Source: an uncultured Poribacteria bacterium (GTDB lineage: Bacteria; Poribacteria; WGA-4E; WGA-3G). Taken from it: DNA of 64,000 nucleotides. The notes beneath the pieces were generated by a model. The model was not told the origin of the DNA and searched no databases. It saw only the letters and a program-made list of their open reading frames with translations. A program made the position numbers and the translations under genes. The stretch is taken from assembly GCA_958295855.1 (NCBI GenBank), contig OY282383.1, positions 1,964,481-2,028,480 of the forward strand. The letters are read 5' to 3'. Positions 1,928 through 26,697 of this stretch are shown piece after piece (within the stretch, counting starts at the first letter, position 1; each line of letters starts with the position of its first letter).

Positions 1928-2003
1928 AAGATTCTGTTTCTTTCAAATTAAATCTCGCGCATTGGAAACTTCTAGGACTTTACAAGTGACTGTTCACAAA
2001 AAT

Positions 2004-2025: not shown

Positions 2026-2058
2026 GGATGCCATTGGCACTTCGTTCCCGATTGTGGG

Positions 2059-2790: not shown

Positions 2791-2866
2791 GAAATTCTGT
2801 TTCTTTCAAATTAAATTTCGCGCATTGGAAACTTCTAGGACTTTACAAGTGAATGTTCACAAAAAT

Positions 2867-2888
2867 AGCGGGAACCGGAGCCCCCGCT
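2867..2888 (-). terminator. Hairpin downstream of PIN copy 3
   Basis: Third example of the AGCGGG/CCCGCT hairpin, with a slightly changed loop, after the truncated third copy. Confidence 0.45.
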
Positions 2889-2921
2889 GGATGCCATTGG
2901 CACTTCGTTCCCGATCGTGGG

Positions 2922-3158: not shown

Positions 3159-3297
3159 CTGAATGTCCTCCATCAATTCTATAGGGGTGCAGAGTTTCGC
3201 GAGGCACAAGACCCCGCAATACACAAGAACGAAAGGCTCCTGCCAAATTATCTGCATTGAGGCATAACGCGGGAACCGTGCCCGCGTCAAGTCTTGT

Positions 3298-3906: not shown

Positions 3907-4056
3907 GGGTTTCCACCTCCTGCCAAATAGGATACCACGTTTTTCTCGCGAAATCAACAAATCTACCACAACACAGTGCCCTTTAGTTTTTCGTTTCACC
4001 CATGCAGGACAAGTGCTGGCGATTTTGACAGACGCTGTGGAAATGGCGTATTTCAA

Positions 4057-5121: not shown

Positions 5122-5211
5122 TATCATTTCCTCAGTAGTATGGGGCGAACAAGGTTGTCCGCCCGTGCTATAATTATACCAAACCGCGATTCGTCTTGTT
5201 TTTCATGCCAC

Positions 5212-5250
5212 GAAGGCAGGCGGAGACAGGGCTCCGCCCTTACAAGTCAA
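5212..5250. repeat. Intergenic repeat of the GGAGACAGGGCTCCGCCCTTACAAG family
   Basis: The segment contains GCGGAGACAGGGCTCCGC, an imperfect hairpin, followed by CCTTACAAGTC. Related copies occur at 8583-8650 (degenerate) and 30793-30830. All lie between genes. It looks like a non-autonomous palindromic repeat of this genome. Confidence 0.5.
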
Positions 5251-5262
5251 AGCAATCTGATA

Positions 5263-5985: not shown

Positions 5986-6256
5986 GAGAGATTCTCCTAT
6001 TTATTTGAGGGTGGTTCATAAATATTAGTTGCAGCACCGCAATCCGCAATGAATTGTGCGACTACAAACCTCGTGTTATCTGTGATTCAGACAACAATTG
6101 TGTACCATCCTCATTTATTTTTGTTAGCTTGTGGGAGCGAGCGTTTCGCTTGCCCCGCAGCTTATGAAACAAACAAATTTGCAACGTGCATTAAAGCTAA
6201 AATGTTGCAACGGCATCACCATTTAGGTAATGTATAAAATCAAAAAATTGCGCGAA
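5986..6256. other. Intergenic spacer with REP-like sequence
   Basis: A stretch of 271 bases without a gene. It contains GAGGGTGGTTCATAA near 6008 followed by a segment with AATGAATTGTGCGACTAC near 6047-6065. Similar sequences occur at 46793-46860, 10090-10134 and in part at 61275-61310, so this is a dispersed repeat. The promoter of the LamG gene must be here, but no convincing -35/-10 pair was found. Confidence 0.4.
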
Positions 6257-7060
6257 TCATTCGCAACTTGGCTTTGTGCAGAGCGCATACACATAAGGCG
6301 ATGTCAACTGCTGGTTTGGCACGCGAAGCCCTGCCAGAAAATTGCCAACCACAATATCTGTTAGATTGACACACTTACAGAGCACTTCATGCCCCCACCT
6401 GCCGATGACTGCCCGCCACGGGGAATAATCGACGACGCTCAATTTTAAGGGACCGCCTGTATATCCGAATTCAGTGACGTGAAATCCAACGTCTCGCAAC
6501 GCTGTGGCAAGCACTATCGGCGTGAGCACCCGATGCGTCGCGAGGAGTTTCGGGCTTGCGACGCGCGCTATCGGCGTATACATGCCCCGCAGATTCGGCG
6601 TTATCGCGAGCATTGTCCCGGCAGGTTTAAGAAGACTATACATCACTTCCAAAACCGCTTGTGGCGTAGTGAAATGTTCAATCAGTCCCATTGAATAAAC
6701 AAAGTCGAATGTCACGCCCTTCTTTTTGGCAAACGCGAACAGATCTTCATAGATAATCGTGCCTTCTACACCTGCAAGTGCAAGGTTCCGCTGTGCAAGC
6801 CGGCATCCCAGTTCTGAGAAATCGACACCGTAGCACTCGCTTTCATAGTTCCGAGCAAGATAGGGTAACCACAACGAATCTGCACACCCTAACTCAATGA
6901 GCATCGGATGTTCAAAGCCGTCCAGGGCACGGTGGAACAAGGTGGCGAGTTGACGGTTCGCTACATAAGCCCATCGCAGATGCCGCACCTTATGCTGCTG
7001 CCCGTCCCAAAGCGTTGTCCAATAGGATTCGTCAGTTAGGGGCGAAGCGTGCAAGCCCAT
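6257..7060 (-). CDS. Class I SAM-dependent methyltransferase
   Basis: The protein is taken to start at MGLHASPL (7060), because GGAGG lies 9 nt upstream and the start follows the stop of the preceding gene by one base; it has 267 residues. Motif I is MLIELGCADSLWLPYLAR, followed by YGVDFSELG (acidic ribose-binding loop region), FDFVYSMGLIEHF (motif post-II) and LLKPAGTMLAITPN. This is the Methyltransf_11/25 pattern of small-molecule or lipid methylases. The stop-start arrangement TAATATG with the DUF2851 gene implies translational coupling. Substrate unknown. Confidence 0.8.
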   Translation of the reverse strand: MGLHASPLTDESYWTTLWDGQQHKVRHLRWAYVANRQLATLFHRALDGFEHPMLIELGCADSLWLPYLARNYESECYGVDFSELGCRLAQRNLALAGVEGTIIYEDLFAFAKKKGVTFDFVYSMGLIEHFTTPQAVLEVMYSLLKPAGTMLAITPNLRGMYTPIARVASPKLLATHRVLTPIVLATALRDVGFHVTEFGYTGGPLKLSVVDYSPWRAVIGRWGHEVLCKCVNLTDIVVGNFLAGLRVPNQQLTSPYVYALCTKPSCE

Positions 7061-7061
7061 A

Positions 7062-8528
7062 TTACCCGTCCTCCGGGAAAATCGCATTGTGCTCTAAGAT
7101 AGGACACAGATCACAGAGCCGGTCAGCGCAATAGTTTCTATGAAGCCGAATTGTGCCCTGCTGGATTTTAGCAGTAGACTTAAGCAGTGCTATCGGCTGT
7201 ACTTCAGTAAAAATCTGTTTCTTAATCTGGCGGATGTCGGTGTTGTCTTGCGTTTTGGTGCAATTACTATAAAGCTGCAGAATTGCGTCCTGCAATTGCC
7301 GGCTATCCGCTTCAACTGCCCAAATATAGGCAACCGGCAGGATTTTGTTGATTATGATTTCCAAGGCTCGATGGGAGCCAATGAGTGCGGCTTTGCGGGT
7401 TCCCTCTTTCCCAAAATTGTAACGCGTTTGCCAGTAGCCAGTAGGTTCAAACATGAGCAGTGCGAGCAGTTCATTTTGGATAGCTCGCCACAGTTTTGGC
7501 GTATTTGCAGTCGCTGCCTTTTCACAGATAGGCAAAAAGTACATCATCAAACTCCCTTGACAGTGATGAATCAACTGACTCATTGCGGCAATGCGCCGGG
7601 TTGGGTAGTTAAAAGGACGAACTCTGCCAAAACGCCACCGTGCTGCTGTCATGTGATCTGGGCGTGAGGCATGCTCCGAAGCACGCCATCGGCTCTCTAA
7701 CGCCACAATAAACGGGTTGTCTACTACCTCGACTGGCAAAGGTTTCTCCCGCTGCGAGGGGAGCAGCCCGGCCACCCCGAAGAGAATAGTTTGAATCTCT
7801 AACTCCGATTTTTGATCGAAATTTTCAAAAGGCACACGTTGTGCCAACTCGCGCAACGGCGTGCTGTTGTGTCTGTACCCCAGTGCCTCCATTATGCCTT
7901 CATAGAGAATTTGCTCAAAATTGAGGCGTGTTCTAAACAAGCGTATCGCATCGGCTTTCTCTAAAAACCGTTCACTGCCCAACGACTCAAAGACACCTCG
8001 GAGGACTTGGAGGTTCAAGCGGTTTCCTGTCACCCTACAGAAACGGGTTGCATCCGCCTCTGTTTTCTTGGTTTCGTCAAACACGTCACCGATAGGCACG
8101 TCAATCCATCGGAGGAGTTCCAGCGTCGGAACCCGCTTGCCATTCTGTAGGCGTGTCCGCAGGTTGATATCGTCGTCAAAGAAAACAGCATGCAGGATGA
8201 CGCGGTTATACCGAGAATTGAGATAATGTCTATGTGCATACCAATCTGAAGCTTTGACATGGATTTCAACATCTCCCACCAGTAATTGTCCATCAATCTC
8301 AATTTCTGCGTGCATAAAATCCGGTCCTTCGTCGTGGTTCCAGACCCCGGGCTTTAGCACGCGAATTGCTCGTCTATCAATTGCCTCCATATTCGTGCTG
8401 AAAAAGCGTTGCCCCTGCCATAATTGCTGAACAAACGCTTCATCAATCTTATCCAAATCCGGCGCATAAGTCTTGTCAATTTCCCTGAGCCGCTTCGCGA
8501 AGGCCTTAACATTCTCTATATCACTCAT
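7062..8528 (-). CDS. DUF2851 family protein
   Basis: The 488-residue protein shows the signature of DUF2851: GPDFMHAEIEIDGQLLVGDV, then EIHVKASDWYAHRHYLNSRY and NRVILHAVFFDDD near residues 70-120. The acidic and His residues there look like a nuclease-like active site, but the family has no established activity. The C-terminus holds a cysteine cluster, NYCADRLCDLCPI, possibly a metal site. It is the first gene of a pair with the methyltransferase and begins at an ATG after a Shine-Dalgarno-poor leader. Function is not known. Confidence 0.85.
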   Translation of the reverse strand: MSDIENVKAFAKRLREIDKTYAPDLDKIDEAFVQQLWQGQRFFSTNMEAIDRRAIRVLKPGVWNHDEGPDFMHAEIEIDGQLLVGDVEIHVKASDWYAHRHYLNSRYNRVILHAVFFDDDINLRTRLQNGKRVPTLELLRWIDVPIGDVFDETKKTEADATRFCRVTGNRLNLQVLRGVFESLGSERFLEKADAIRLFRTRLNFEQILYEGIMEALGYRHNSTPLRELAQRVPFENFDQKSELEIQTILFGVAGLLPSQREKPLPVEVVDNPFIVALESRWRASEHASRPDHMTAARWRFGRVRPFNYPTRRIAAMSQLIHHCQGSLMMYFLPICEKAATANTPKLWRAIQNELLALLMFEPTGYWQTRYNFGKEGTRKAALIGSHRALEIIINKILPVAYIWAVEADSRQLQDAILQLYSNCTKTQDNTDIRQIKKQIFTEVQPIALLKSTAKIQQGTIRLHRNYCADRLCDLCPILEHNAIFPEDG

Positions 8529-8582
8529 ATTTTTTCACCTAGGTAGTTATCGAAGTCATCTGGGTTATACCCAATTCATGCC

Positions 8583-8650
8583 ATAATGGACAGATACAGG
8601 GTTATGTCCTTACAAGCCACACAACGGCAGCAACAGGGCTCCGCACTGAC
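8583..8650. repeat. Degenerate copies of the intergenic GGCTCCGC repeat
   Basis: Two partial copies lie in tandem, one with GTCCTTACAAGCCACAC and one with CAACAGGGCTCCGCACTGAC. They resemble the elements at 5212 and 30793. The spacer between DUF2851 and thiE holds nothing else recognised. Confidence 0.35.
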
Positions 8651-8654
8651 AATA

Positions 8655-9290
8655 TTAGCGATGCTTCGCACTGTGAATTTCGTTGATAAGTGCCTGCGTT
8701 GCTAAGCGTGGTTCAGGATGGGCACAAACAGCAGAGATAACGGCAATGCCGTGTGCTCCTGCTCGAATCACATCAGCCGCCGTTTGCACAGTAATGCCGC
8801 CAATTGCGATAACCGGGCACGCCGCGATGTCACACATTCGGCGAAGCCGCTCTAACCCCTTCGCTGTTTCCGCATCCGGTTTTGAGGATGTACCATAAAT
8901 AGGGCCAAACCCGATGTAGTCAGCACCTTCTGAAATGGCAGCGAGTATCTTCTCCTCAGTTCGGGCAGATGCGCCAAGGATGGCTTCTGAGGAGAGAATT
9001 CGTCTCGCGATGGAGACAGGCATGTCGTCTTGTCCAAAATGTGCCCCCATCGCACCAACAGCGAGCGCGATGTCCGCCCTATCGTTTACGAGCAACGGTA
9101 CGTTGTGCCGCGCGCATACCGCCTGCATCTCCTTTGCCATCTCTACTAATTCGCGCGTAGCGCCCTGTTTATGCCGAAATTGCACCGTATCCGCACCACC
9201 CTCAATTGCAAGCTCAGCCAGTTCGGCGTGCGTAAATCGGGATTGAAGTGTTGTGTCCGTGATGACGTGGCAAACGCCGATGTTTTTCAT
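8655..9290 (-). CDS. thiE: Thiamine-phosphate synthase
   Basis: ThiE joins 4-amino-2-methyl-5-hydroxymethylpyrimidine diphosphate and carboxythiazole phosphate (or thiazole phosphate) to give thiamine phosphate (EC 2.5.1.3). The 211 residues match the usual length. Motifs in order: TVQFRHKQGATRELV (substrate lysine and Arg region), PLLVNDRADIALAVGAMGAHFGQDD with the N-D-R metal and pyrophosphate site, DYIGFGPIYGTSSKP, and PVIAIGGIT plus AHGIAVISAVCA for the phosphate loops of the TIM barrel. No other thi gene is in the window, so the gene stands alone here. Confidence 0.92.
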   Translation of the reverse strand: MKNIGVCHVITDTTLQSRFTHAELAELAIEGGADTVQFRHKQGATRELVEMAKEMQAVCARHNVPLLVNDRADIALAVGAMGAHFGQDDMPVSIARRILSSEAILGASARTEEKILAAISEGADYIGFGPIYGTSSKPDAETAKGLERLRRMCDIAACPVIAIGGITVQTAADVIRAGAHGIAVISAVCAHPEPRLATQALINEIHSAKHR

Positions 9291-9423
9291 GTTGGCATTC
9301 CGCTGAAAATGTGATAAATTAATAGGGACATTCGGTTTTCAGGTTAACACGCGTACCCAAACACCTGTTTTTACGGAAAACGGAATATCCATAATTTAGT
9401 ATACCATATAAAGGAGATACTTT

Positions 9424-10059
9424 GTGAATAATTTATTATTTCAATCTGGAGATAAGGTGCTTTTCATTGGGGATAGCATTACAGATTGCGGCCGGCGAGA
9501 TGCACACGCGCCTTTAGGGCATGGATACGTCCGCAAAATAACCGAGTTAATCACTGCCAAATACCCTGAGCGCGACATCGCTTACGTGAACAAAGGGATT
9601 GGTGGGGATATCGTTGAGGGCTTAGAAAGCCGGTGGGACACCGATGTTATCGCCGAAAAACCGGGGTGGCTCTCGGTGAAAATCGGTATCAACAATGCGA
9701 GCCGTCAGTTGGCATCGGATATGTCGACTGAAGACTACCTGCCGAACTGGGAGGCGTGCTACCGGCGCATTCTCACGCGTGTGAAAACCGAATTGGATGC
9801 CCCTCTTTTTCTGTTTGAAATTTTCTATATTGAAGAGGATGTTGAGATGCCGCGCCCATTAGCAGTGGATGCCTACAACACAAGCATCCACAGGTTGGCT
9901 GAAGAGTTTGATGCACGCCTTATTCGGACAAGTGCTGCGTTTAGCAGTGCAGTTGCAGCACGCCCCGGTGCCCTATGGACAACCCAAGATGGTGTTCATC
10001 CAAACGCGGAAGGACATACATTAATGGCATTAGAATTCCTCAAATTAGCAGGGTGGTAG
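9424..10059 (+). CDS. SGNH/GDSL-family hydrolase
   Basis: The protein begins at a GTG codon (9424) with AAAGGAGA 7 nt upstream, which decides this unusual start. It has 211 residues. Block I is FIGDSITDCG with the nucleophilic Ser, block II has the Gly in NKGIGGD, block III the Asn in KIGINN, and block V is DGVHPN with Asp and His. This is the full SGNH catalytic set. Such enzymes are esterases or acetylhydrolases acting on lipids or acetylated sugars. No signal peptide is seen. It is a single-gene unit facing the minus-strand operon downstream. Confidence 0.88.
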   Translation: MNNLLFQSGDKVLFIGDSITDCGRRDAHAPLGHGYVRKITELITAKYPERDIAYVNKGIGGDIVEGLESRWDTDVIAEKPGWLSVKIGINNASRQLASDMSTEDYLPNWEACYRRILTRVKTELDAPLFLFEIFYIEEDVEMPRPLAVDAYNTSIHRLAEEFDARLIRTSAAFSSAVAARPGALWTTQDGVHPNAEGHTLMALEFLKLAGW

Positions 10060-15393: not shown

Positions 15394-17037
15394 ATGCCAA
15401 CACTCAATTGGATCGGCAAAGAAGCAGTTATCAACCATCACGATGAGGTGCCAATACACACGCTCACCCACGACAGCGACAGATCTCTCGGCACTGAGAA
15501 CGAACCCCTCGGCACTGGCAATCTCCTCATTGAAGGTGATAACCTCATCGCGCTCAAAGCACTCCTCCCCTACTACACCGGTAAAGTCAAATGCATCTTC
15601 ATCGATCCGCCCTATAATACAGGCAACGAAAACTGGGTTTACAACGACAACGTCAATAATCCAACCATCCAGAAATGGCTCGGAAAAACGGTAGGGGCCC
15701 TCGCCGCAGATCTCTCCCGACACGATAAGTGGCTCTGCATGATGTTCCCACGCCTCTGTCTCCTCCATCAACTCCTCCGAGACGATGGTGCAATCTTCAT
15801 CACTATTGACGATAATGAGGTTCATCACCTCCGCCTCCTTATGGACGAAATCTTCGGAGAAGAAAACTTTGTCGCTAACATTGCATGGGAAAAACGCTAT
15901 AGCCGCAATAATGATGCGAAACTTTTTTATTCTAAAAAGGATGCGGTGCTCGTTTTCAGAAAGAGCAAAGCCCTCGAAATGCTACGGGAGATGCGAACCG
16001 ATGAGGCGAACTCGCTATATAAGAACCCGGATAATGATCCACGCGGTCCATGGATGACTACTCCTTATGCTAGAAAAAGTAGCAAAAAGCATGATAATCT
16101 GGTTTATCCAATCACCAATCCAAATACAGGTGAGACTGTGATTCATCCAGACTATGCATGGAGATGCACGAAAGAACAGCACGAAATTGACGTGAAGGAA
16201 AACAGGCTTTGGTGGGGCAAAAATGGTAGAGCGAAATACCCTAGACTGAAACGCTTTCTTTCAGAAGTCTCTGGCGGAATGGTCCCTATAGATATATGGT
16301 TTCATAAAGAAAGTGGTACCTCAGATGAAGGGACAAAAGAGGTCAAACAGATATTTAACACCGAGAATACCGTATTTGACTACCCGAAACCTACGCGGCT
16401 TATCCGGCGGATTATCAACCTTGTCACAACGCCCGATGGAAATGATATTGTGCTAGACTCCTTTGCTGGCAGCGGCACGACCGGTCACGCTGTCCTTGCC
16501 CAAAACCGTGAAGATAGGGGCAATCGCCAATTCATTTTAGTGGAATTGGAGCCGAAGATAGCCCGCAAAATTACAGTGACACGTCTCAAGCGCGTCAGTG
16601 AGGGCTACACCTTTGAAAACAACGGTAAACAACAGCACGAGTTCGGCACTGGTGGTACATTCTCTTATTACCACGTCAGTGACACCTTCTTGGAAAAATC
16701 GGAAATTCCCTTTCATGAGATGGCGCAGTACCTCTTTTTCAAGGAGACAGGTGTCCCGATGGCGACAGACACCGCGCTTGCCCTTGTAGAATCGGATAGA
16801 CCTTCGTATGCTTCTTGCACTACCCGTGAAAAACGCCACCGCGCCTTTTTAGGGAGTGCAGACGGTGTGGGTGTCTATCTGCTCAACAACGACGATGTCC
16901 TCACCGAGGAGCTCATAAGCCGCTTACCGCGCCATGATGGCAGAAAGATAATCCATTGTGGTGGCACCCAACTCACCGATGCTTTTTTAAAGCAGTTGGG
17001 CATAACCTTTCGCCAAATGCCGTATAACCTCGTATAG
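15394..17037 (+). CDS. Type III Mod-like adenine DNA methyltransferase, copy 1
   Basis: Mod subunits methylate adenine N6 at asymmetric sites and guide the Res subunit. The 547-residue protein has motif IV DPPYNTG at residues 71-77 and motif I DSFAGSGTTGHAV from residue 355, the circularly permuted beta-class order of type III Mods. Between them lies the target recognition region. Residues 1-130 and from about 350 to the end are almost identical to copy 2 at 17218, but about 220 central residues differ almost completely. So the two copies likely recognise different DNA sequences. The last 190 residues, rich in shared text, are probably the dimerisation and Res contact part. A small upstream element GGAGGGATACCGAGG, seen in both copies, includes a Shine-Dalgarno-like site. 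Confidence 0.88.
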   Translation: MPTLNWIGKEAVINHHDEVPIHTLTHDSDRSLGTENEPLGTGNLLIEGDNLIALKALLPYYTGKVKCIFIDPPYNTGNENWVYNDNVNNPTIQKWLGKTVGALAADLSRHDKWLCMMFPRLCLLHQLLRDDGAIFITIDDNEVHHLRLLMDEIFGEENFVANIAWEKRYSRNNDAKLFYSKKDAVLVFRKSKALEMLREMRTDEANSLYKNPDNDPRGPWMTTPYARKSSKKHDNLVYPITNPNTGETVIHPDYAWRCTKEQHEIDVKENRLWWGKNGRAKYPRLKRFLSEVSGGMVPIDIWFHKESGTSDEGTKEVKQIFNTENTVFDYPKPTRLIRRIINLVTTPDGNDIVLDSFAGSGTTGHAVLAQNREDRGNRQFILVELEPKIARKITVTRLKRVSEGYTFENNGKQQHEFGTGGTFSYYHVSDTFLEKSEIPFHEMAQYLFFKETGVPMATDTALALVESDRPSYASCTTREKRHRAFLGSADGVGVYLLNNDDVLTEELISRLPRHDGRKIIHCGGTQLTDAFLKQLGITFRQMPYNLV

Positions 17038-17061
17038 CAGCGTACGGTAGTAAGCACACGC

Positions 17062-17078
17062 CGTGTGCTGTCAAGTAT
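17062..17078 (+). terminator. Hairpin after Mod copy 1
   Basis: AGCACAC and GTGTGCT form a perfect 7-bp stem with a 3-nt loop about 25 nt after the stop codon. A run of seven T follows later. The same structure, slightly degenerate, occurs after copy 2. Terminator or attenuator is likely. Confidence 0.45.
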
Positions 17079-17093
17079 GCAGGTACAATTTTT

Positions 17094-17122
17094 TTGACAA
17101 ATTTGGTTGGATGTTTTATAAT
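17094..17122 (+). promoter_or_regulatory. Consensus sigma-70 promoter of the second Mod gene
   Basis: TTGACA (17094-17099), 17 nt, TATAAT (17117-17122): both boxes match consensus. It lies in sequence duplicated after copy 2 as well (18912-18940). Confidence 0.8.
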
Positions 17123-17217
17123 ATCGTAGAATTTATTCCTCGTCAAAGGAGTAGCGGATATCCAGGCTTATAGAATTTCTATCCCACATCCGGAAGGATA
17201 TCGAGGGCACCGCATAC

Positions 17218-18855
17218 ATGCCAACACTTAATTGGATCGGCAAAGAAGCAGTTATTAACCATCACGATGAGGTGCCAATACACACGCTCACCCACGACAG
17301 CGACAGATCTCTCGGTGCTGAGAACGAACCTCTCGGCACTGGCAATCTCCTCATTGAAGGTGATAACCTCATCGCGCTCAAAGCACTCCTCCCCTACTAC
17401 ACCGGTAAAGTCAAATGCATTTTCATCGATCCACCCTATAATACAGGCAACGAAAACTGGGTTTACAACGACAACGTCAACAATCCAACCATCCAGAAAT
17501 GGCTCGGAAAAACGGTAGGGGCCCTCGCTGCAGATCTCTCCCGGCACGATAAGTGGCTCTGCATGATGTTCCCACGCCTCTGTCTCCTCCATCAACTCCT
17601 CCGAGACGATGGAGTCATTTTCGTTACACTTGACGATAACGAACAACCGAACCTGCGTTTACTGATGAACGAGATTTTCGGTGAGACAAATTTTGTTGCC
17701 AATCTCATCTGGAGAAAAAAGGCGGGTGGCGGACAAGACTCTGAATACTATGCCAGAGAGCATGAATACATCCTCTGCTACCGGAAAAGTGATGCCTATA
17801 CTATGAAGTTCAGGACCTCAGAGAGAACTCAAACTGAATTTCCTAAAGTCAAGAATGGGCGAAAATGTAAATTCGTGAAACTCGAAAAATGGGGATCCAA
17901 CGCATATAGGGAAGACAGACCCACAATGTTTTATCCAATTGAAGATCCGGATGGAAACCCCTTCTTTCCGCAAGCTCCAGATGGAAACGATGGAAATTGG
18001 AGAACTCGCCCTACAGCTTTGGATCAAGACCATATTCATTGGATAAAAAGAAGAGGGCGCTGGACACCCTACGAAGTTATCTATTTTGACGAGAAACAAG
18101 ACAAAGCGAAAGTTCTTAAAGAGCGCAGCATCTATTACGATATTGCAACAACGACAGATGCTACAAACGAGCAAAAATCCATTTTTGGCAAAAAGGTTTT
18201 TGACAATAGCAAACCCCTTGAGCTCATAAAGCGGTTGATTCTATTGTCTACCGAACCTGATTCAATTGTGCTAGACTCCTTTGCTGGCAGCGGCACGACC
18301 GGCCACGCTGTCCTTGCCCAAAACCGTGAAGATAGGGGCAATCGCCAATTCATTTTAGTGGAATTGGAGCCGAAGATAGCCCGTGAAATTACAGTGACAC
18401 GTCTCAAGCGCGTCAGTGAGGGTTACACCTTTGAGAACAACGGTAAACAACAACACGAGTTCGGCACTGGTGGCACCTTCTCCTATTACCACGTCAGTGA
18501 CACCTTCTTGGAAAAATCGGAAATTCCCTTTCATGAGATGGCGCAGTACCTCTTTTTCAAGGAGACAGGTGTCCCGATGGCGACAGACACCGCGCTTGCC
18601 CTTGTAGAATCGGATAGACCTTCGTATGCCTCTTGCACTACCCGTGAAAAACGCCACCGCGCCTTTTTAGGGAGCGCGGACGGTGTGGGTGTCTATCTGC
18701 TCAACAACGACGATGTCCTCACTGAGGAGCTCATAAATCGCTTACCGCGCCATGATGGCAGAAAGATAATCCATTGTGGTGGCACCCAACTCACCGATGC
18801 TTTTTTAAAGCAGTTGGGCATAACCTTTCGCCAAATGCCGTATAACCTCGTATAG
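17218..18855 (+). CDS. Type III Mod-like adenine DNA methyltransferase, copy 2
   Basis: The 545-residue protein is a tandem paralog of the 15394 gene. Motif IV DPPYNTG and motif I DSFAGSGTTGHAV are the same. The N-terminal region to about residue 130 and the C-terminal 195 residues are nearly identical at DNA level, with only scattered silent or single changes. The centre (starting near GVIFVTLDDNEQ, ending before the DSFAGSG motif) is unrelated except for short structural matches such as NFVAN. This is what one expects after exchange of the target-recognition region. The sequence upstream and about 130 bp downstream is also duplicated. Two Mods with one Res could give two specificities to one restriction system. 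Confidence 0.88.
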   Translation: MPTLNWIGKEAVINHHDEVPIHTLTHDSDRSLGAENEPLGTGNLLIEGDNLIALKALLPYYTGKVKCIFIDPPYNTGNENWVYNDNVNNPTIQKWLGKTVGALAADLSRHDKWLCMMFPRLCLLHQLLRDDGVIFVTLDDNEQPNLRLLMNEIFGETNFVANLIWRKKAGGGQDSEYYAREHEYILCYRKSDAYTMKFRTSERTQTEFPKVKNGRKCKFVKLEKWGSNAYREDRPTMFYPIEDPDGNPFFPQAPDGNDGNWRTRPTALDQDHIHWIKRRGRWTPYEVIYFDEKQDKAKVLKERSIYYDIATTTDATNEQKSIFGKKVFDNSKPLELIKRLILLSTEPDSIVLDSFAGSGTTGHAVLAQNREDRGNRQFILVELEPKIAREITVTRLKRVSEGYTFENNGKQQHEFGTGGTFSYYHVSDTFLEKSEIPFHEMAQYLFFKETGVPMATDTALALVESDRPSYASCTTREKRHRAFLGSADGVGVYLLNNDDVLTEELINRLPRHDGRKIIHCGGTQLTDAFLKQLGITFRQMPYNLV

Positions 18856-18911
18856 CAGCGTACGGTAGTAAGCACACGTCGTGTGCGGTCAAGTATGCAG
18901 GTACAATTTTT

Positions 18912-18940
18912 TTGACAAATTTGGTTAGATGTCTTATAAT
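18912..18940 (+). promoter_or_regulatory. Consensus sigma-70 promoter of the AAA ATPase gene
   Basis: TTGACA (18912-18917), 17 nt, TATAAT (18935-18940). It is the copy of the promoter at 17094, carried along with the duplicated 3' flank of the Mod gene, and now precedes the ATPase gene. Confidence 0.75.
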
Positions 18941-19042
18941 ATTGTAGGATTTATTCGTCAGATTGAATTGAGGGTAGTTCCTAACTTGCCGCGAGCACAA
19001 TGTTGAGAGAATCCACGGATGCCTCTTTTTGTAGCGACATCT

Positions 19043-19074
19043 GTTAGTTTGTGTCCAATGGTACGCAAACTAAC
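19043..19074. promoter_or_regulatory. Inverted repeat in the leader of the AAA ATPase gene
   Basis: Arms GTTAGTTTG (19043-19051) and CAAACTAAC (19066-19074) are perfectly complementary with a 14-nt loop. It lies between the promoter and the start at 19151. It may be an operator or leader hairpin. Confidence 0.45.
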
Positions 19075-19150
19075 ATTTTGTGCTATGGAACCGCCGGAAC
19101 AACGAACTATCCTCAAAAGCGCGGCACAAAGGATGATTAGGAGAAGTCTG

Positions 19151-20755
19151 ATGCTTCACGCACTGGAATTAGAGAATTTCAAAGCCTTCGGGGAACGCGC
19201 GCGTATTCCGTTTGCGCCGATAACGCTCATTTTCGGCGAAAACAGCGCGGGAAAGAGCACAATCCTGCAAGCACTTAATTTGCTCAAGCAGACACGGGAA
19301 AGCCGGGAGACTGGGGTTTTGCTGCTGCCGCGAGTTGAGAATGGCATTGTCGATCTTGGCAGCTTTCAGGATATGCTTTTCGACCATGATTTGGAACGGA
19401 CGCTTTCGATTCGTGTTGAAACTACAGTAGGTAGAAGATACCGGTTTCGACCATCATTCAGCGGAGACAAAATAGCTATTGAACTTCGTTTCAAAAGACC
19501 CTCCCTTGAGGAAGAAGTCCTTTTAGATGAAATTGGTATTTACAATGGGAAATCTGCTAAGTGTATTGCCAAATTTCAGCCATTGGATCGAACTGAAATA
19601 TCAAGGGAATTTCGGGGGCGGTTAGGCTTTTTCCGTGATTCGCGTGGGTTGCCAGTTTCAATTTCAAAATTAGGGGCGGCAAAGTGCGTTTGGTTAACAG
19701 AGGAGCCAGAGCATTGGAAGCTGGAGTTTGAGTGGCGTTTGAGGAATAACGAGGAGGAACTTCGCGAACTCAAGGAAATATTAACTGAATTTGAGCATGC
19801 TAACGAAGCTCGCCAGGAAGACAATAATAGGCTTAGGGAAGGGTTGAAATCCTTAAACGACGAGATTAAATTCTTATCATCGGATTTTGATTTGAAAACC
19901 TACATTTCCAGGAGGCACCAGGAAAAGATGAACACGGTCCTAGGGATGCAGGGTTTTCTGCCAGTTGGAGCCATGCATGGTGAAAGAAGTTCTTGGAGAG
20001 GAGTACGCCGCTCATTATTACGCCGGCGACCTGATGATGCGGTGTTTGATGTCGCTCGACTCGCTACCATAGCAGGCTATGCTTTGGAGCAAACTTTGGA
20101 ATCTCTTTTCCCAATGAGCCCTTTTCGGAGACCTCCGGAAAGATGGTACATCTTTAGGGGTACCAGCCCCCAAAATGTGGGATATCGCGGAGATTTGCTT
20201 CCAGATTTACTCTTCCGTCGTCCTGAGCTAGTGCAAGACACAAACGAATGGCTCAAACGACTTGACATCGGCTACGAGCTTGAGGTAAAACCGGTGGGGA
20301 CTGAGGCACGCGATCTATTTGAGGTCAGGCTCATAGATACCCGTCGAAAAGAACGCGTAAGTGTAGCACTGCCAGATGTCGGTTTCGGTATTAGTCAACT
20401 CCTCCCCTTCGTTGTTCAGAGTTTGGTTTCAGAGGAACAAATTATTTCTATTGAGCAACCTGAAGTTCACGTGCATCCGAGATTGCAAGCAGATCTCGGT
20501 GACCTGTTAGCGGAAGCCATTAAAAAACCACGCCGGAGCCAATTCATCGTTGAAACCCACAGTGAGCATCTGATTTTACGTCTGCAACGCCTCGTCTATA
20601 AAAATCGCATTAAGCCAGAAGATGTCTCGGTTATCTACGTCAGTCGAGGCCCTGAAGGGGCGGAGGCCCAACGTTTACATCTTGATGAGGAAGGCGATTT
20701 TATTGATGAATGGCCCAACGGGTTTTTCCTGGAACGTCTCCGGGAATTGAGATAA
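19151..20755 (+). CDS. AAA/OLD-like ATPase with DUF3696 C-terminus
   Basis: The 534-residue protein starts at 19151 (MLHALELENFKAFG), with AGGAG 7 nt upstream; a longer frame from 19019 includes the leader. Walker A is GENSAGKST at residues 29-37. Signature-like VGFGISQLLP and Walker B ISIEQPEVHVHPRL (E435) follow, then the H-loop ETHSEHLILRL. The C-terminus GDFIDEWPNGFFLERLREL is the DUF3696 pattern. This is an ABC/SMC-like ATPase of the type common in phage defence. A charged helical region near 200-260 may form a coiled coil. The next gene starts 17 nt after the stop, so the two are an operon. Confidence 0.85.
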   Translation: MLHALELENFKAFGERARIPFAPITLIFGENSAGKSTILQALNLLKQTRESRETGVLLLPRVENGIVDLGSFQDMLFDHDLERTLSIRVETTVGRRYRFRPSFSGDKIAIELRFKRPSLEEEVLLDEIGIYNGKSAKCIAKFQPLDRTEISREFRGRLGFFRDSRGLPVSISKLGAAKCVWLTEEPEHWKLEFEWRLRNNEEELRELKEILTEFEHANEARQEDNNRLREGLKSLNDEIKFLSSDFDLKTYISRRHQEKMNTVLGMQGFLPVGAMHGERSSWRGVRRSLLRRRPDDAVFDVARLATIAGYALEQTLESLFPMSPFRRPPERWYIFRGTSPQNVGYRGDLLPDLLFRRPELVQDTNEWLKRLDIGYELEVKPVGTEARDLFEVRLIDTRRKERVSVALPDVGFGISQLLPFVVQSLVSEEQIISIEQPEVHVHPRLQADLGDLLAEAIKKPRRSQFIVETHSEHLILRLQRLVYKNRIKPEDVSVIYVSRGPEGAEAQRLHLDEEGDFIDEWPNGFFLERLRELR

Positions 20756-20772
20756 CAGAAGGAGCTAAGTCA

Positions 20773-21738
20773 ATGCTAGTCAGTGCAGTGCTTGATCCTG
20801 CTGCGTTTGATTCAGATTATTTTGATGCACTTTATACGATTCAGGCGGTAGATTTCTTAAAGGGTATCCAGAGAAACGGACTACTAATTGTTGATTCGGA
20901 AAATAGACTGCGAGATGCCCTCGTTAAACAAATTAAATCCCTTCCAATCAAGCCTCAGCAGCGATTGCGATCTTTGATTGAAGAACTCGTCCTGAAAAAG
21001 AGATCCAAGCGAGTCATTGCGTGTTTTGTCTCCCTAAATGATACATCATCGGTGAGTCTTTTGGACTTAGCATATCACTTGAAAACGGGTACCAAAGCCG
21101 ATGCCTTAATTGTTGGAAAGAAAAGCCTGGAAACACTAAAATCGGACCGAAGGTTTAGTGAGTGCATGGTTCCATTATCAGAATACCGCGATAGCAATTT
21201 TGAGAAAGACCGCCAGCAGTATGAGAACCAATTTGGCCCCATAGACACGCTGCCTAAATCGGAAGTGGAAGACATCATCATCCGTTCAGTCCGTTTCTCG
21301 AAATGGCTGCGGTTTTATGACCCATACATTGGGAGAAGAAAAAATACACCTGATTTCCAAAAAGGTATTAAATATATTCTATCGCTTTGGAATCAACCCG
21401 GTTCTTTTGCATCTCAGCAGGGCGTTAGAAGTGTGGAGATATTTACGTGTAGTCATCGAGATGTCCAGACTCACGTTCAACACCAAAGAATCACTCAAAA
21501 GCTCATAGAACCGCTAACGCGCCGATTTCCTCTTCCTATACATTTCTCGATAAAGGACGATGCTGATGGTATCTTTCATGCGAGGTATTTGGAAACGCAA
21601 CACGCGATTATCCGAGTCGATCGTGGTTTTGACCTCTTCAAGCGAAACGGCGAGTTTCGGCGGAACTTCTTTACGCTACATAAGGCGGAAAGTTCGCACT
21701 TGAGAGAGTGTCGCGATTTACCGAACGCAGCCCTTTGA
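20773..21738 (+). CDS. Phospholipase-D-like (MIT-C type) protein paired with the ATPase
   Basis: The 321-residue protein starts at 20773 with AAGGAG 8 nt upstream, 17 nt after the ATPase. The C-terminal half has RFYDPYIGRRKNTPDFQKGI, then VEIFTCSHRDV, and finally FHARYLETQHAII plus RVDRGFDLF. This is the pattern of one PLD/MIT-C-like unit: D-P-Y-I-x-N-F, an F-T strand, and a final (H-x-R)-x-L-x-T with a following G-x-D. The H-x-K of true PLD nucleases is H-x-R here, so activity is uncertain. The N-terminal half is helical with no recognised domain. With the ATPase it probably forms a two-gene defence module; that is inference. Confidence 0.65.
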   Translation: MLVSAVLDPAAFDSDYFDALYTIQAVDFLKGIQRNGLLIVDSENRLRDALVKQIKSLPIKPQQRLRSLIEELVLKKRSKRVIACFVSLNDTSSVSLLDLAYHLKTGTKADALIVGKKSLETLKSDRRFSECMVPLSEYRDSNFEKDRQQYENQFGPIDTLPKSEVEDIIIRSVRFSKWLRFYDPYIGRRKNTPDFQKGIKYILSLWNQPGSFASQQGVRSVEIFTCSHRDVQTHVQHQRITQKLIEPLTRRFPLPIHFSIKDDADGIFHARYLETQHAIIRVDRGFDLFKRNGEFRRNFFTLHKAESSHLRECRDLPNAAL

Positions 21739-21753
21739 GGCGGCGTTCTAGCG

Positions 21754-21818
21754 ATATGTATAGAAATTATACATATTGACCTTGATATGTATAGAAATTG
21801 CCAAAAACTATACATATC
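21754..21818. promoter_or_regulatory. Double-palindrome operator upstream of the Fic gene
   Basis: Two inverted repeats lie in tandem: ATATGTATA/TATACATAT (21754-21776, 5-nt centre) and GATATGTATAG/CTATACATATC (21784-21818, 13-nt centre). The same 65 bp with few changes is present upstream of the toxin-antitoxin genes at 23173-23237. The palindromes are typical of autoregulated operators; the Fic protein has a C-terminal winged helix that could bind here. Confidence 0.7.
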
Positions 21819-21840
21819 CAATTGTTGAAAGCGGTGGAAC

Positions 21841-22938
21841 ATGACGACAAAGGCTCAATTCAATCAAAATATCCCGTGGAACCACATTCCGGAACTTCCG
21901 CCTAGAGTGGACATTGATTCGCGCGATATACTTAGAGCGTGCATCTCGGCGATGACTGAGCTTGCTAGGGCAAACGCCTTGGTGAAGATGCTGCCAAACG
22001 AAGGAGTTCTGGTTGACACCTTACCACTTCAGGAGGCACGCATGAGTTCGGAAATCGAAAATATCGTCACCACAAACGATGAACTGTATCGAGCTATGAC
22101 CTCTGAAAACCACCAAATTTCCCCGAGTACCAAAGAAGTGCTGCGCTACCGCGAGGCATTATGGACAGGTGTGAGTAGTCTGCGCGCCCGCCCCACTCTG
22201 AACATGTCACTCTTTGAGCAGATTTGTTCGCGTATTCTTGATATGGAGATGAGTGTTCGGGATGACGGGGTCGTGATTGTAAACAAGGCCACACAGCAGG
22301 TTATCTACACGCCTCCCATCGGATACAAGAAGATCATAAAGTTGTTAACCAACCTTGAGCACTTCATCAACGACAACAACAATGGATTCCAACCACTTGT
22401 CAAAATGGCCGTGATGCACTACCAGTTTGAAGCGATACACCCCTTCGCGGATGGCAATGGGCGGACGGGCCGCATACTCAACATTCTCTATCTTATACAT
22501 CAAGGGCTGCTTGATGTCCCGATACTTTACCTCAGTCGTTTCTTTATCCAGAATAGGTCTGACTATTACCGTTACCTGCGTGAAGTTACAGAAGATGGAA
22601 AATGGCAGCAGTGGATACTCTACGTGTTAGAGGCAGTGGAACAGACATCACGAGACACTGCACGCACGATAGAGGCAATCAATACCCTTATTGACAACCT
22701 AATTACGCGAGCACAAGGCAAAACGAAAGCCGTTGAGCGCGAAGGGTTTGTAGAGCTACTGTTCAAGTGGCCTTACTGTAAGATTAATATTGTTGAGAGA
22801 GAACTGAAGTGTAGTCGCGTTACAGCCACAAAATACCTGAACGAAATAGCAGATCTTGGGTTGCTTGAGCGCGTGAAGATCGGACGAGAATCCTATTACA
22901 TCAACAGGAATCTTATGGAATTGCTCTCAAACGTGTAG
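21841..22938 (+). CDS. Fic-domain AMPylase with C-terminal winged-helix domain
   Basis: Fic proteins transfer AMP or similar groups to hydroxyl side chains. The 365-residue protein has the Fic motif HPFADGNGRTGR from residue 200, complete with the catalytic His. Residues 69-74 (SSEIEN) fit the inhibitory helix [S/T]xxxE[G/N], so this is a class II, self-inhibited Fic protein. The N-terminal domain is the Fic_N type. Residues 300-365 form a winged-helix domain (IVERELKCSRVTATKYLNEI), probably DNA-binding. The operator before the gene is likely its own target. Such genes are common in defence islands and are thought to regulate or stop cell growth. Confidence 0.88.
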   Translation: MTTKAQFNQNIPWNHIPELPPRVDIDSRDILRACISAMTELARANALVKMLPNEGVLVDTLPLQEARMSSEIENIVTTNDELYRAMTSENHQISPSTKEVLRYREALWTGVSSLRARPTLNMSLFEQICSRILDMEMSVRDDGVVIVNKATQQVIYTPPIGYKKIIKLLTNLEHFINDNNNGFQPLVKMAVMHYQFEAIHPFADGNGRTGRILNILYLIHQGLLDVPILYLSRFFIQNRSDYYRYLREVTEDGKWQQWILYVLEAVEQTSRDTARTIEAINTLIDNLITRAQGKTKAVEREGFVELLFKWPYCKINIVERELKCSRVTATKYLNEIADLGLLERVKIGRESYYINRNLMELLSNV

Positions 22939-23306
22939 ACGCAAACCCTGATCCGCGAGTGTTGTAACCTTGTTGGGAATAAATGTTTATAGGACACCAC
23001 GTGTGCAAACCTATAAACCCTGTCAGGGGGAAATATTTATAGAGTAGAAGCACAAACACTCGCATAGCGAATAACAATTGAACGTCCCGGTGCATCGGCG
23101 CAATTTTTGTTGCGCAGCCGATTTCTGTATGGTATCATAAATTAAGTGAGAAGAGGGCTTATCCAAGTCTTAATATGTATAGAAATTATACATATTCACC
23201 CTGATATGTATAGAAATTGCCAAAAACTATACATATCCAATTGTTGAATATCCCGGTGCATCGGCGCGATTTTTGTTGCTAACCAGAATTCTAGAAGGTG
23301 AACGTA
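22939..23306. other. Intergenic region with duplicated operator and repeat
   Basis: 368 bases without a gene. The first part has TTTATAG segments (22985, 23036) that are partial inverted repeats. The sequence CCCGGTGCATCGGCGC followed by a TTTTTGTTG stretch occurs twice, near 23086 and 23252. The operator described at 21754 is repeated at 23173-23237. So this region was probably built by duplication of the Fic gene upstream sequence. Confidence 0.6.
23173..23237. promoter_or_regulatory. Double-palindrome operator upstream of the toxin-antitoxin pair
   Basis: ATATGTATA/TATACATAT (23173-23195) and GATATGTATAG/CTATACATATC (23203-23237). Both palindromes and the sequence between are nearly identical to the Fic operator at 21754-21818, with the same order and spacing. 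A shared repressor would control both units. Confidence 0.7.
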
Positions 23307-24005
23307 ATGACACCCACTATTACAGACGACATCACCTCCCAACAGTTATGCGATTGGCTTGCGCCAATTGTAGATAGTGAGATATTTGCATCACGTGAAA
23401 AACTTATCGCGCTTCTTGCAAAGCATAGCCCCCACGAGGCCCTGGAACAAGAGTTCCGTGAGTTCTTCAACGGCTACTACGCCCTTGCCTTAGAACTTGA
23501 AGCGTACGAAACATCTGTCCTTACGCTCATAGAGGCATCCGACGCGTTTGCACACCTGAAACACTGTGTCTCTATAGTTGAAGCCAAGCGGAAGAGCTCG
23601 CCTTTGGGACGCGAAGTACGGCGGATGGGAATGTCCATACACCGAGATGCTGTGCCATCGATAAAGGTAACAGCACTATCCCCTGATGAATTCCGGGCGT
23701 TGATGCGGACACTTGGAGATTGGCGACTTTTTGCATTGCGGGAACGTCTCGTTGCGTTAATGGAAATGGAACGTTCCGTTGAGATAGTGCCGCGGCTTCG
23801 CGCCGAGTTCTACGAGTTTTTTGTCTCCTATTTGGAACTGGAACTGTTCCTTGAGAATTATGATTACGACCCGGACGAAGGGCTGGCATTGCGTCCAGAA
23901 TTCATTGAAGAACTAGAACGTGAAGATGAATATATCAAGTCTGGTGGCAAAATGTTTACGCTTGAGGAGGTCGCCGAAGAGTTAGGGGTCAAGTTGAATG
24001 TATGA
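23307..24005 (+). CDS. Antitoxin-like protein with internal repeat, partner of RelE-type toxin
   Basis: The ATG at 23307 is preceded by AAGGTG at 6 nt; a GTG at 23298 is also in frame. The 232-residue protein has two similar 60-70-residue blocks, REKLIALLAKHSPHEALEQE with FREFFNGYY, and RERLVALMEMERSVEIVPRL with RAEFYEFFVSY, so it contains an internal duplication. The C-terminal part, EDEYIKSGGKMFTLEEVAEE, is acidic and similar to the tail of many antitoxins that bind RelE/ParE proteins. The next gene overlaps its end by 8 nt. No DNA-binding domain is evident, so repression of the operator may be done by another protein. Confidence 0.6.
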   Translation: MTPTITDDITSQQLCDWLAPIVDSEIFASREKLIALLAKHSPHEALEQEFREFFNGYYALALELEAYETSVLTLIEASDAFAHLKHCVSIVEAKRKSSPLGREVRRMGMSIHRDAVPSIKVTALSPDEFRALMRTLGDWRLFALRERLVALMEMERSVEIVPRLRAEFYEFFVSYLELELFLENYDYDPDEGLALRPEFIEELEREDEYIKSGGKMFTLEEVAEELGVKLNV

Positions 24006-24255
24006 ATTGATATTGACTCGAAACGCCGAGGGGGATTTGCGGCGTTTGGATGCCAAAATCCGAAAGCAAGTTATCAGAAAACTTCAACGGCTATGTGAAA
24101 ATTGTGACGAATACGCCCATAAGGCACTGAAGGGCAAATATAGTGGACAGTTCAAGTTACCTTCTGGAGACTATCGAGCGATTTATACTTACGATAAACA
24201 AACTGAGACAGTTACAGTCTCCCGAATTAGGCATCGTTCATCTGTCTATGAATGA
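23998..24255 (+). CDS. RelE/ParE-family toxin
   Basis: The 85-residue protein is RelE/ParE-like in length and pattern: YELILTRNAEGDLRRLDAKI at the start, the basic core LKGKYSGQFKLPSGDYRAIY and the C-terminal VTVSRIRHRSSVYE with the H-R-x-x-V-Y end. RelE-like toxins cut mRNA at the ribosome, ParE-like ones inhibit gyrase; which applies cannot be told. It overlaps the antitoxin gene by 8 nt (ATGTATGA), so it is translationally coupled to it. The order is antitoxin first. Confidence 0.82.
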   Translation: MYELILTRNAEGDLRRLDAKIRKQVIRKLQRLCENCDEYAHKALKGKYSGQFKLPSGDYRAIYTYDKQTETVTVSRIRHRSSVYE

Positions 24256-24294
24256 ATAAATCTAATACTTTTTTAACCTCGAAAAACTAAAAAA

Positions 24295-26697
24295 ATGCAC
24301 CTACCCCTCAAAGAATACCAAGAGCGCACCCTTGAAACGCTGACAGCCTACTACCAAAACTGCCTGCATTTCAAGAATGCCAACACCGCATTCTACGATT
24401 TCACCCAGAGGCCGTATGCCGACGTTGAATCCTTACCCGGCATGCCTTATGTCTGTCTCCGCCTCCCAACAGGTGGGGGCAAAACCTTCGTGGCGTGTCA
24501 CACTGTGGGCATCACGGCATCTGAACTCTTAAAAACCGAGAGCCCGCTCGTCCTTTGGCTTACGCCTTCAAATGCCATCCGAGATCAGACGCTCAATGCC
24601 CTTAAAAATCCAGACCATCCGTACAGAGATGCTTTTAAATCCGCAGGGCACAATGTGGAGATCCGCACTATCGGCGAGGCACTCTATCTCTCTCCGTATA
24701 TTCTCAACACGAAAACGACGATTATTGTCTCTACGATGCAAGCGTTCCGCGTTGAGGACACCGATGGACGCAAGGTCTACGAACCCTCAGGCGCGCTGAT
24801 GGGACATTTCACACATCTGCCCGACGAAACCCTTTCGGAGATGGAGCGTGATGAAAGCGGCAAGCCGATCTATTCCCTCGCGAATCTCTTATGCGTTAAA
24901 CGTCCCCTCGTCATCGTGGATGAAGCACACAACGCCCGAACCGCACTCTCTTTTGATACGCTTGCCCGGTTCAACCCCGCTGCAATCATTGAATTCACTG
25001 CCACCCCGGATACCGTCAAAAATCCTTCCAATGTCCTCTATACCGTCTCTGCCGCCGAGCTCCAAGCGGAAGACATGATCAAGATGCCGATTCAGTTGGA
25101 AACCACGCCAGCGTGGAAACAGCTGCTCACCGCCGCTATTGCACAGCGCAACACGCTTGAAATTGATGCACAGAAGGAACAGGAAGAGACAGGTGAATAC
25201 ATCCGTCCCATCATGCTCATTCAGGCGCAGCCAAGACGCAAAAGCCAAGAGACATTGACTGTCGAAGTCGTTGAGAAATGTCTGCTTGAAGAACACGAAA
25301 TTCCCGAAGAGCAGATCGCGCGTGCCACAGGCGAGGACAGAGGCCTTGACAATGTCGACCTTAACCACCCGGGGTGTCACATTCGTTATGTCATCACCGT
25401 GCAGGCGTTGCGAGAAGGATGGGATTGCCCGTTCGCCTACGTCCTCTGCTCGGTCGCCGAAATGAAATCCTCCACGGCTGTTGAACAGATATTGGGCAGA
25501 GTCATGCGACTCCCAAAGGCACAGCGAAAGAAACAGGAATCACTGAACAGGGCTTATGCTTTCGTTGCGTCCCGCAACTTCTACGATGCGGCATCCGCCT
25601 TGACCGATGGGCTCGTCCAAAACGGGTTTGAAAAGCAGGCAGCCGCTGAACTCATCCGCGCTACAGGCGACTGTCAACCCATTTTGTCACTCTTTGCAGG
25701 CATGACACCACCGAGCACCGAGCCTACACCCGCAGAACGCGGGGAAGTTTTTAAAGTACCGAAGTTAGCAGTGCAACGCGGGCAAACACACCTTGATTTT
25801 GAGGGAACGCGATTTCGAGAAACCCCATGGCGGCTGTCCGAATGCGATGCTGAACTCTCTGAAGAAGAATTTCCATCCGAATTTAACACGGGAGACCGGG
25901 GCGAAATCGGGCTTTCTCGCGAGGGACGATTAGAGATGCGATTCTTGGGGGAACTCCATCAACAGATGACTCTCCTCGCGCCGGATAAAAACTGGGATGC
26001 AGCACGGCTCGCCGATTGGCTGGACAGAACCATTAAACATCTGGACATCCTGCGCCGTGAGTCCCTCCCTTTCCTACAGCGATTAGTCAAACATCTGATT
26101 GAAGTGCGAGATATCCCAATAGAGATGCTCATCCGCAACAAGTACGCCCTCAAGGATGCTGCTGCGGCGAAGATTGATAGCCATCGCCAAACCGCGCACC
26201 GCGGTGCCTATCAAAACCTTCTCTTGCCCGAATGTGAAACGCCGGTTGTTGTATCACCGGAACACTGCTTCTCCTTCGACGCACACCGTTATCCCTACAA
26301 CACTCGTTATGCGGGTGCCTATCAATTCCAGAAACATTACTACCCACACGTCGGCACTCTGAAGGCAGATGGCGAAGAATTCCGATGCGCGCAGTTCATT
26401 GACACGTTGCCTGAAGTTAAATATTGGGTACGGAACCTTGAACGCCAACCGCTTTATTCCTTTTGGCTTCAAACCTTAACCGACAAGTTTTACCCTGATT
26501 TTGTCTGCCTCTTAACCGATGGACGCTATTTAGTGGTTGAGTACAAAGGCGAGCACCTCTGGTCTGCCGACGATGCGAAAGAAAAGCGCGACATCGGTGA
26601 ATTGTGGGAGGCGCGTAGCAAAGGGAAGTGCCTCTTCATCATGCCCAAAGGCACAGATTTTGAGGCAATCCGCGCCAAGATGGCCTCAAAATTCTGA
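24295..26697 (+). CDS. Type III restriction Res-like helicase-nuclease
   Basis: Res subunits translocate or scan DNA with ATP and cut it together with Mod. The 800-residue protein has the superfamily 2 Walker A PTGGGKT at residues 58-64, DEAH at 209-212, TATPD soon after, and a motif VI-like QILGRVMRLP. The C-terminal YPDFVCLLTDGRYLVVEYKG gives D735, E749 and K751, the PD-(D/E)XK nuclease. It comes 39 nt after the RelE-type toxin gene, so the toxin-antitoxin pair lies between it and the Mods at 15394 and 17218. The two Mods and this Res would make a full type III system, split by about 5.4 kb of other modules. Confidence 0.87.
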   Translation: MHLPLKEYQERTLETLTAYYQNCLHFKNANTAFYDFTQRPYADVESLPGMPYVCLRLPTGGGKTFVACHTVGITASELLKTESPLVLWLTPSNAIRDQTLNALKNPDHPYRDAFKSAGHNVEIRTIGEALYLSPYILNTKTTIIVSTMQAFRVEDTDGRKVYEPSGALMGHFTHLPDETLSEMERDESGKPIYSLANLLCVKRPLVIVDEAHNARTALSFDTLARFNPAAIIEFTATPDTVKNPSNVLYTVSAAELQAEDMIKMPIQLETTPAWKQLLTAAIAQRNTLEIDAQKEQEETGEYIRPIMLIQAQPRRKSQETLTVEVVEKCLLEEHEIPEEQIARATGEDRGLDNVDLNHPGCHIRYVITVQALREGWDCPFAYVLCSVAEMKSSTAVEQILGRVMRLPKAQRKKQESLNRAYAFVASRNFYDAASALTDGLVQNGFEKQAAAELIRATGDCQPILSLFAGMTPPSTEPTPAERGEVFKVPKLAVQRGQTHLDFEGTRFRETPWRLSECDAELSEEEFPSEFNTGDRGEIGLSREGRLEMRFLGELHQQMTLLAPDKNWDAARLADWLDRTIKHLDILRRESLPFLQRLVKHLIEVRDIPIEMLIRNKYALKDAAAAKIDSHRQTAHRGAYQNLLLPECETPVVVSPEHCFSFDAHRYPYNTRYAGAYQFQKHYYPHVGTLKADGEEFRCAQFIDTLPEVKYWVRNLERQPLYSFWLQTLTDKFYPDFVCLLTDGRYLVVEYKGEHLWSADDAKEKRDIGELWEARSKGKCLFIMPKGTDFEAIRAKMASKF

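Follow-up and report, generated by a model that had tools for sequence, protein, structure and literature searches.

We describe here a type III restriction-modification (RM) locus of Poribacteria, sponge-symbiont bacteria, in which genes resembling other defence modules lie between the methyltransferase (Mod) and restriction (Res) genes. The window, meaning the whole stretch of 64,000 nucleotides that was analysed, comes from contig OY282383.1 (positions 1,964,481 to 2,028,480) of assembly GCA_958295855.1, a genome of 5.5 Mb in two contigs. Eight open reading frames are present at window positions 15394-26697, all on the forward strand (+), as are the other features located below: Mod1, Mod2, an ATPase, its PLD-like partner, a Fic protein, a putative antitoxin (AT), a RelE toxin and Res. 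Layout and gene families agree with a preliminary description made from the letters of this DNA, and scans of the window proteins against Pfam, PADLOC and NCBIfam left two weak spots, the PLD label and the antitoxin label of a 235-aa protein. The gap of 39 nt between RelE and Res is as first described; the short spacing that had been attributed to the whole row holds in general and fails between Fic and AT, which are about 360 nt apart.

Mod1 (15394..17037) and Mod2 (17218..18855) match the N6_N4_Mtase family and PADLOC MTase_III (E 5e-172 and 3e-148), retain unbroken catalytic motifs (DPPY...DSFAGSG) and have the build of type III N6-adenine methyltransferases, being beta-class (DPPY before FxGxG) with a variable central recognition domain. 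Res (24295..26697) is intact and matches ResIII and PADLOC REase_III (E 2e-145), with the SF2 helicase motifs and PD-ExK nuclease of a type III restriction subunit (PTGGGKT, DEAH, QILGRVMR and PDF...EYK, all unbroken). The DNA of the two Mod genes is about 97% identical at both ends and unrelated over positions ~15800-16440, the variable target-recognition region of Mod1, whose differing counterpart in Mod2 lies at ~17624-18255. A common frame with several different recognition regions is seen in the nine Mods compared, which come from the window and from seven relatives. Type III Mod alleles with a conserved frame and a swapped target-recognition domain are known; unlike these, the window carries two complete tandem Mods beside a single Res, and among the cassettes examined a second Mod of the same frame is confined to the window. 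Tandem repeats able to cause phase variation were not found. Elsewhere in the window genome, another type III locus (L049, G000:C1:3042000-3061000) also has two Mods and then Res, with a GHKL-type ATPase and a response-regulator-like gene between its two Mods.

The ATPase (19019..20755) is of the DUF3696/AAA_15 (OLD-ABC-like) kind, with catalytic motifs unbroken in the window, and homologues suggest that its true start is at 19151 (534 aa). PADLOC matches include HEC-03B, PDC-M55A and NsnB (E about 1e-54 to 1e-58), with the ATPase component of the HEC-03 and Nsn candidates matched at E 3.5e-58 and 6.1e-54; AriA models match at E 5e-30 and are outscored by HEC-03B and NsnB. Residues ~140-340 are hypervariable (identity 25-60%) between conserved nucleotide-binding ends, a pattern compatible with a recognition region. 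The partner gene (20710..21738; start at 20773, 321 aa, suggested by homologues) encodes a FHARYLET motif and takes its PLD label from a single sub-threshold match, MIT_C at 18.5 bits against a cut-off of 25. Family scans of this protein gave no PADLOC match, no AriB match and no HNH domain; PDB sequence searches with it and with AT returned no credible relative, nor did tblastn with the PLD-like protein over the plasmid and phage collections find one, and its related loci in the GTDB collection came from Poribacteria in 16 of 16 cases. A literature search on DUF3696 and the PADLOC codes NsnB, HEC-03 and PDC-M55 yielded nothing relevant. Every full-length ATPase orthologue (n = 30) has intact ATPase motifs and is accompanied by the PLD-like partner or its N-terminal part.

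Downstream, AT (23298..24005; 235 aa) is overlapped by a small RelE/ParE-family toxin gene (23998..24255; ParE_toxin, E 1e-12). This is the layout of a type II toxin-antitoxin pair, and the linkage supports AT as the putative antitoxin of RelE. AT has no match among the families of Pfam, PADLOC or NCBIfam; its helical content was read from a single moderate-confidence model, an internal duplication is apparent by inspection, and the best of five AlphaFold models, at pLDDT 70 against about 42 for the rest, gave no convincing PDB match. RelE was not seen without AT (one RelE copy stands at a contig start), AT is often found without RelE, and seven matches in the window genome (L141-L146), some with a RelE partner and some without, place AT in a paralogous family. 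A tripartite operon with a RelE homologue is known (PMC11980606). Upstream of AT there is also a 56-nt direct repeat (23078-23133 and 23244-23299), 80% identical and partly palindromic.

Between the PLD-like gene and AT lies a SoFic-like Fic AMP-transferase (21841..22938) of Fic_N/Fic/SoFic_C architecture (PADLOC SoFic, E 2e-112), with an unbroken catalytic motif, HPFADGNGRTGR (HPFxxGNGR type), and an N-terminal inhibitory motif, SSEIEN; its score is under the NCBIfam SoFic equivalog cut-off (426.7 vs 550 bits). The gene is flanked by two copies, 97% identical, of a 76-nt element of two palindromes, here called REP (21754..21829 upstream, 23173..23248 downstream; DNA fold z -5.2), and at the search depth used these are the two copies in the window genome.

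The gene-order search proposed with the preliminary description was run across genomes. A Res profile search of 85 genomes of the phylum found 19 full-length orthologues, all in one family, and in 16 of these 19 genomes ATPase and PLD lie between Mod and Res, PLD being whole or, in four, represented by its N-terminal part fused to AT (among the 16, the G074 locus is split over two contigs and the Mod of G064 is cut by a contig end). The usual order is Mod - ATPase - PLD - AT - (RelE) - Res, with Fic and the second Mod as extras of the window. Since 16 of the 19 Res genomes have them, the possibility that no two modules recur together with Mod and Res can be set aside, and by this comparison the grouping exceeds chance, because 16 genomes, the window's included, share the order. 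Of the 16 cassettes, 14 have AT; eight of these keep an intact or almost intact RelE and six have it missing or truncated, a proportion on which RelE was rejected as a needed part. In G017 and G052, Res comes straight after Mod; the Res of G052 is frameshifted or misassembled, and G017 has intact Mod and Res genes with ATPase, PLD and AT missing at the locus. In G056, ATPase-PLD stands before Mod and the PLD frame is broken.

Most of the relatives' cassettes share one place, between two glutamyl-tRNA-synthetase-like genes, flanked by a DegT aminotransferase on one side and by a Peripla_BP/sulfatase or decarboxylase gene on the other. The same hotspot holds ATPase-PLD alone in G001, G006, G010, G055, G057 and G084, AT-RelE alone in G067, G071, G072 and G077, Fic alone in G003, ATPase-PLD-AT or its fused form, with RelE, in G011 and G012, and Mod-ATPase-PLD without Res in G073; GmrSD-HNH or PIN genes sometimes occur upstream of Mod. 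The window's cassette lies off the hotspot, with a sigma factor/FHA gene on one side and truD on the other, while the synthetase site of its genome is without a cassette; the cassette therefore exists at more than one site.

Trees were compared, and subjected to approximately unbiased (AU) tests, for five of ten pairs (Res/ATPase, Res/PLD, Res/AT, ATPase/PLD and Res/gltX). Common splits numbered 1/14 for Res/ATPase, 1/14 for Res/PLD, 0/11 for Res/AT and 1/27 for ATPase/PLD, and in these four pairs exchanged trees were rejected at p <= 1e-4. The conflict between Res and gltX is less clear, with 3/9 splits in common; on gltX data the Res tree is rejected at p 0.02, and on Res data the rejection of the gltX tree is strong. 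The N-terminal 200 residues of PLD are fused in frame to AT, with RelE always next, at L033, L130, L131, L132 and L133; these fusions form a single clade in the PLD tree, and their carriers are scattered in the Res tree. Judged from such comparisons, the modules recombine and are gained and lost independently. The proposal that they all make up one composite system finds no support: cassettes can do without Fic or RelE, both ATPase-PLD and AT-RelE are also present where this Mod-Res is not, and the trees of the modules conflict.

The predicted promoters indicate how the parts may be expressed together. A promoter-like site, P1 (15314..15342; TTGACA-17-TAATAT, 10/12, a consensus match only), precedes Mod1, and scanning placed a perfect site (TTGACA-17-TATAAT, 12/12) before the ATPase, P2 (18912..18940), with a copy before Mod2 (17094..17122), the site being included in the duplicated Mod block. 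A site of at least 11/12 within 250 nt of the conserved ATPase start was found in 19 of 31 loci, compared with 0.6% of shuffles; the same scan never found an 11-12/12 site before PLD, RelE or Res. Gaps downstream of the ATPase are short, and ATPase and PLD overlap in many loci. Res is probably co-transcribed with the inserts, because a near-consensus site precedes the ATPase and none precedes RelE or Res.

The ATPase-PLD pair is also associated with other RM systems. In G023 it is found inside a different type III locus, flanked by a Mod of 1100 aa and a Res of 1004 aa, both of other PADLOC families, and the window genome itself has a related large Mod/Res of this second type III family with a PLD remnant between the two (L147, G000:C1:3689000-3708500), where two near-copies of a Transposase_31-like gene are likewise situated. 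On two proteobacterial plasmids, of Methylocella and Azotobacter, a DUF3696-type ATPase directly follows type I HsdS and is itself followed by a 300-308-aa protein with a DFHARYL motif; hhalign aligned the Methylocella partner with PLD at P 6e-4 and a probability of only 29%. Other plasmid DUF3696 ATPases have different partners, for example an RNA ligase family gene. All five plasmid relatives of Res that were examined are plain Mod-Res, and because of this the embedding of inserts is probably derived. Embedding between Mod and Res is not confined to the window's Mod-Res family, because two distant type III loci also carry genes there: a STAND/TPR protein and PIN at L040 (G027, 3219-9861) and a HicB-like antitoxin at L045 (G022, 15412-15735).

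Just three cassettes contain Fic: in the window it sits between PLD and AT, and in G017 and G056 it follows Res. Present in only 3 of 19 loci, it was rejected as a constant part. REP lies directly upstream of Fic at all examined Fic loci that have upstream sequence, and also downstream at several; the sole examined Fic locus at which no adjoining REP was seen, L184, has a contig that begins at Fic. In G016, G074 and G075 a lone REP without Fic occupies the gap between PLD and AT, the position of Fic in the window, and in G052 one stands after Res, the position of Fic in G017 and G056. The simplest reading of these leftovers is excision or exchange of Fic by recombination between REPs, and REP may additionally be a candidate operator of Fic. 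As an operator of AT-RelE it was rejected, being missing at stand-alone AT-RelE loci and adjoining Fic instead. In the Fic tree, six of the eight members of the RM-adjacent or hotspot clade adjoin a methyltransferase system (type III, IIG-like or Hma), compared with 0 of 13 in a second clade at a different chromosomal site (Fisher p 5e-4, indicative only, as adjacency was scored by inspection and rows are non-independent). At L171 (G032, 1308-8739), HmaC-like and HmaB-like genes precede a Fic of the RM-linked clade with REP. At L166, L167, L169 and L180 the chromosomal Fic has Schlafen-like, ATPase and PIN-like genes at a distance of a few kb, possibly a separate defence cluster.

We consider it probable that this is a modular, layered type III locus in which separable accessory defence modules are housed between Mod and Res, a reading founded, by comparison of genomes, on recurrence, module order, promoter conservation, independent gain and loss, and incongruent trees. 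Mod would be expressed from its own promoter, with an exchangeable recognition domain, of which the window has two, setting the target sequence, and P2, a second strong promoter, would drive ATPase - PLD - (Fic) - AT - RelE - Res as a single transcription unit. Mod-Res would cut unmethylated incoming DNA. The PLD-like protein may form a second line, of nuclease type, activated by the OLD-like ATPase once the hypervariable middle region of that ATPase detects a signal of infection. Further layers, all optional, may be AT-RelE and the REP-flanked Fic, which would stop growth or help to stabilise the cassette. Such layers would work side by side, with expression and inheritance in common, no module requiring the others. 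Several points weigh against this account: the PLD assignment is weak and the AlphaFold model of that protein failed (pLDDT 46); the promoters are consensus matches; the lone modules could in part be what is left of longer cassettes; the tree conflict may be inflated by rapid evolution and by recombination within genes; and RelE may be a plain addiction module, with another role for AT.

Alternatively, a passive hotspot may collect unrelated selfish and defence genes, with their position in Mod-Res functionally meaningless and AT-RelE mainly stabilising the region. Conserved host genes do flank a site of variable contents, Fic, GmrSD-HNH and PIN genes visit that same site, and AT is a member of a large paralogous family. 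However, order is kept inside a single predicted transcription unit and P2 is kept with it, the whole order is also found at another site in the window genome, whose hotspot holds no cassette, and ATPase-PLD is embedded in other RM families, all of which make this explanation rather unlikely.

The best reading of the ATPase-PLD pair itself, on sequence grounds, is as an RM-associated backup module, possibly a guard. The stronger form of this idea, in which ATPase-PLD, alone or together with AT-RelE or Fic, detects that restriction is inhibited or has failed and responds by killing or arresting the cell, follows PrrC, a toxic effector inside the type IC EcoprrI locus that acts upon restriction inhibition, and PARIS (AriA/AriB), an OLD-ABC-type ATPase gene followed by an effector nuclease gene, both established RM guardians (PMC12707154). 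The embedding of the pair in the Mod-Res loci of two distinct type III families (the second at L121), the similar pair with the same FHARYL motif directly after type I HsdS on the Methylocella and Azotobacter plasmids, the probable co-transcription of Res, and the ATPase's AriA-type matches, weaker than those to HEC-03B or NsnB, are in keeping with it. Against it, at least six genomes have kept an intact ATPase-PLD in the absence of this Mod-Res, and clustering in defence islands explains the co-localisation equally well; PARIS, for its part, also works without a neighbouring RM system. We regard the guard model as unlikely. More doubtful still is the extended proposal that ATPase-PLD is a new RM-guard module moving between type I and type III systems across phyla, its hypervariable ATPase domain sensing restriction failure and its PLD-type effector acting, with the PLDn-AT fusion of some Poribacteria replacing the effector and so wiring the sensor to RelE. 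That ATPase, PLD and AT are obligatory subunits of a single restriction complex is very improbable. In its favour, ATPase-PLD is kept between Mod and Res in 16 of 19 cassettes and AT in 14, including six whose RelE is missing or truncated. Against it, the locus of G017 lacks ATPase, PLD and AT while its Mod and Res genes are intact, the plasmid relatives consist of plain Mod-Res, ATPase-PLD occurs without Res, and the trees conflict.

Compared with known systems, the modular type III locus resembles PrrC/EcoprrI in having effector-type genes within an RM locus and differs in being type III, with an ATPase-PLD pair, a toxin-antitoxin pair and Fic and no PrrC match in family scans. It resembles PARIS in having an OLD-ABC-like ATPase with a following partner gene; here the partner is PLD-like with no AriB match in PADLOC, and the ATPase prefers the HEC-03B and NsnB models. 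HEC-03, NsnB and PDC-M55 are similar in the ATPase, but PADLOC has no model that fits the PLD-like partner or AT, and unlike Septu there is no PtuB HNH nuclease partner. OLD-ABC ATPase-nuclease dyads and toxins are embedded as backup effectors in the core operons of BREX and related loci (PMC12839542); the embedded dyad and toxins are alike, whereas the host here is a type III Mod-Res and module exchange at one hotspot is documented. SoFic, a single-gene defence toxin acting by AMPylation (PMC12249575), has the Fic_N/Fic/SoFic_C architecture of the window's Fic, which differs in falling below the equivalog cut-off and in lying inside an RM operon with REP. The suggestion that such a composite had not been described thus stands in part: embedded guards and backup effectors are known from RM and BREX loci (PMC12707154, PMC12839542), and the recurrent type III version is new.

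Also new are the joining of an ATPase-PLD pair to several types of RM system, repeatedly and to unrelated ones, and the documented exchange of modules, in which leftover REPs let past positions of the repeat-flanked Fic be read. One site in Poribacteria presents a natural series of deletions and rearrangements, with all modules, subsets, single modules and fused forms, and because this series extends over many related genomes, the dependence of an RM system on its embedded modules is directly testable.

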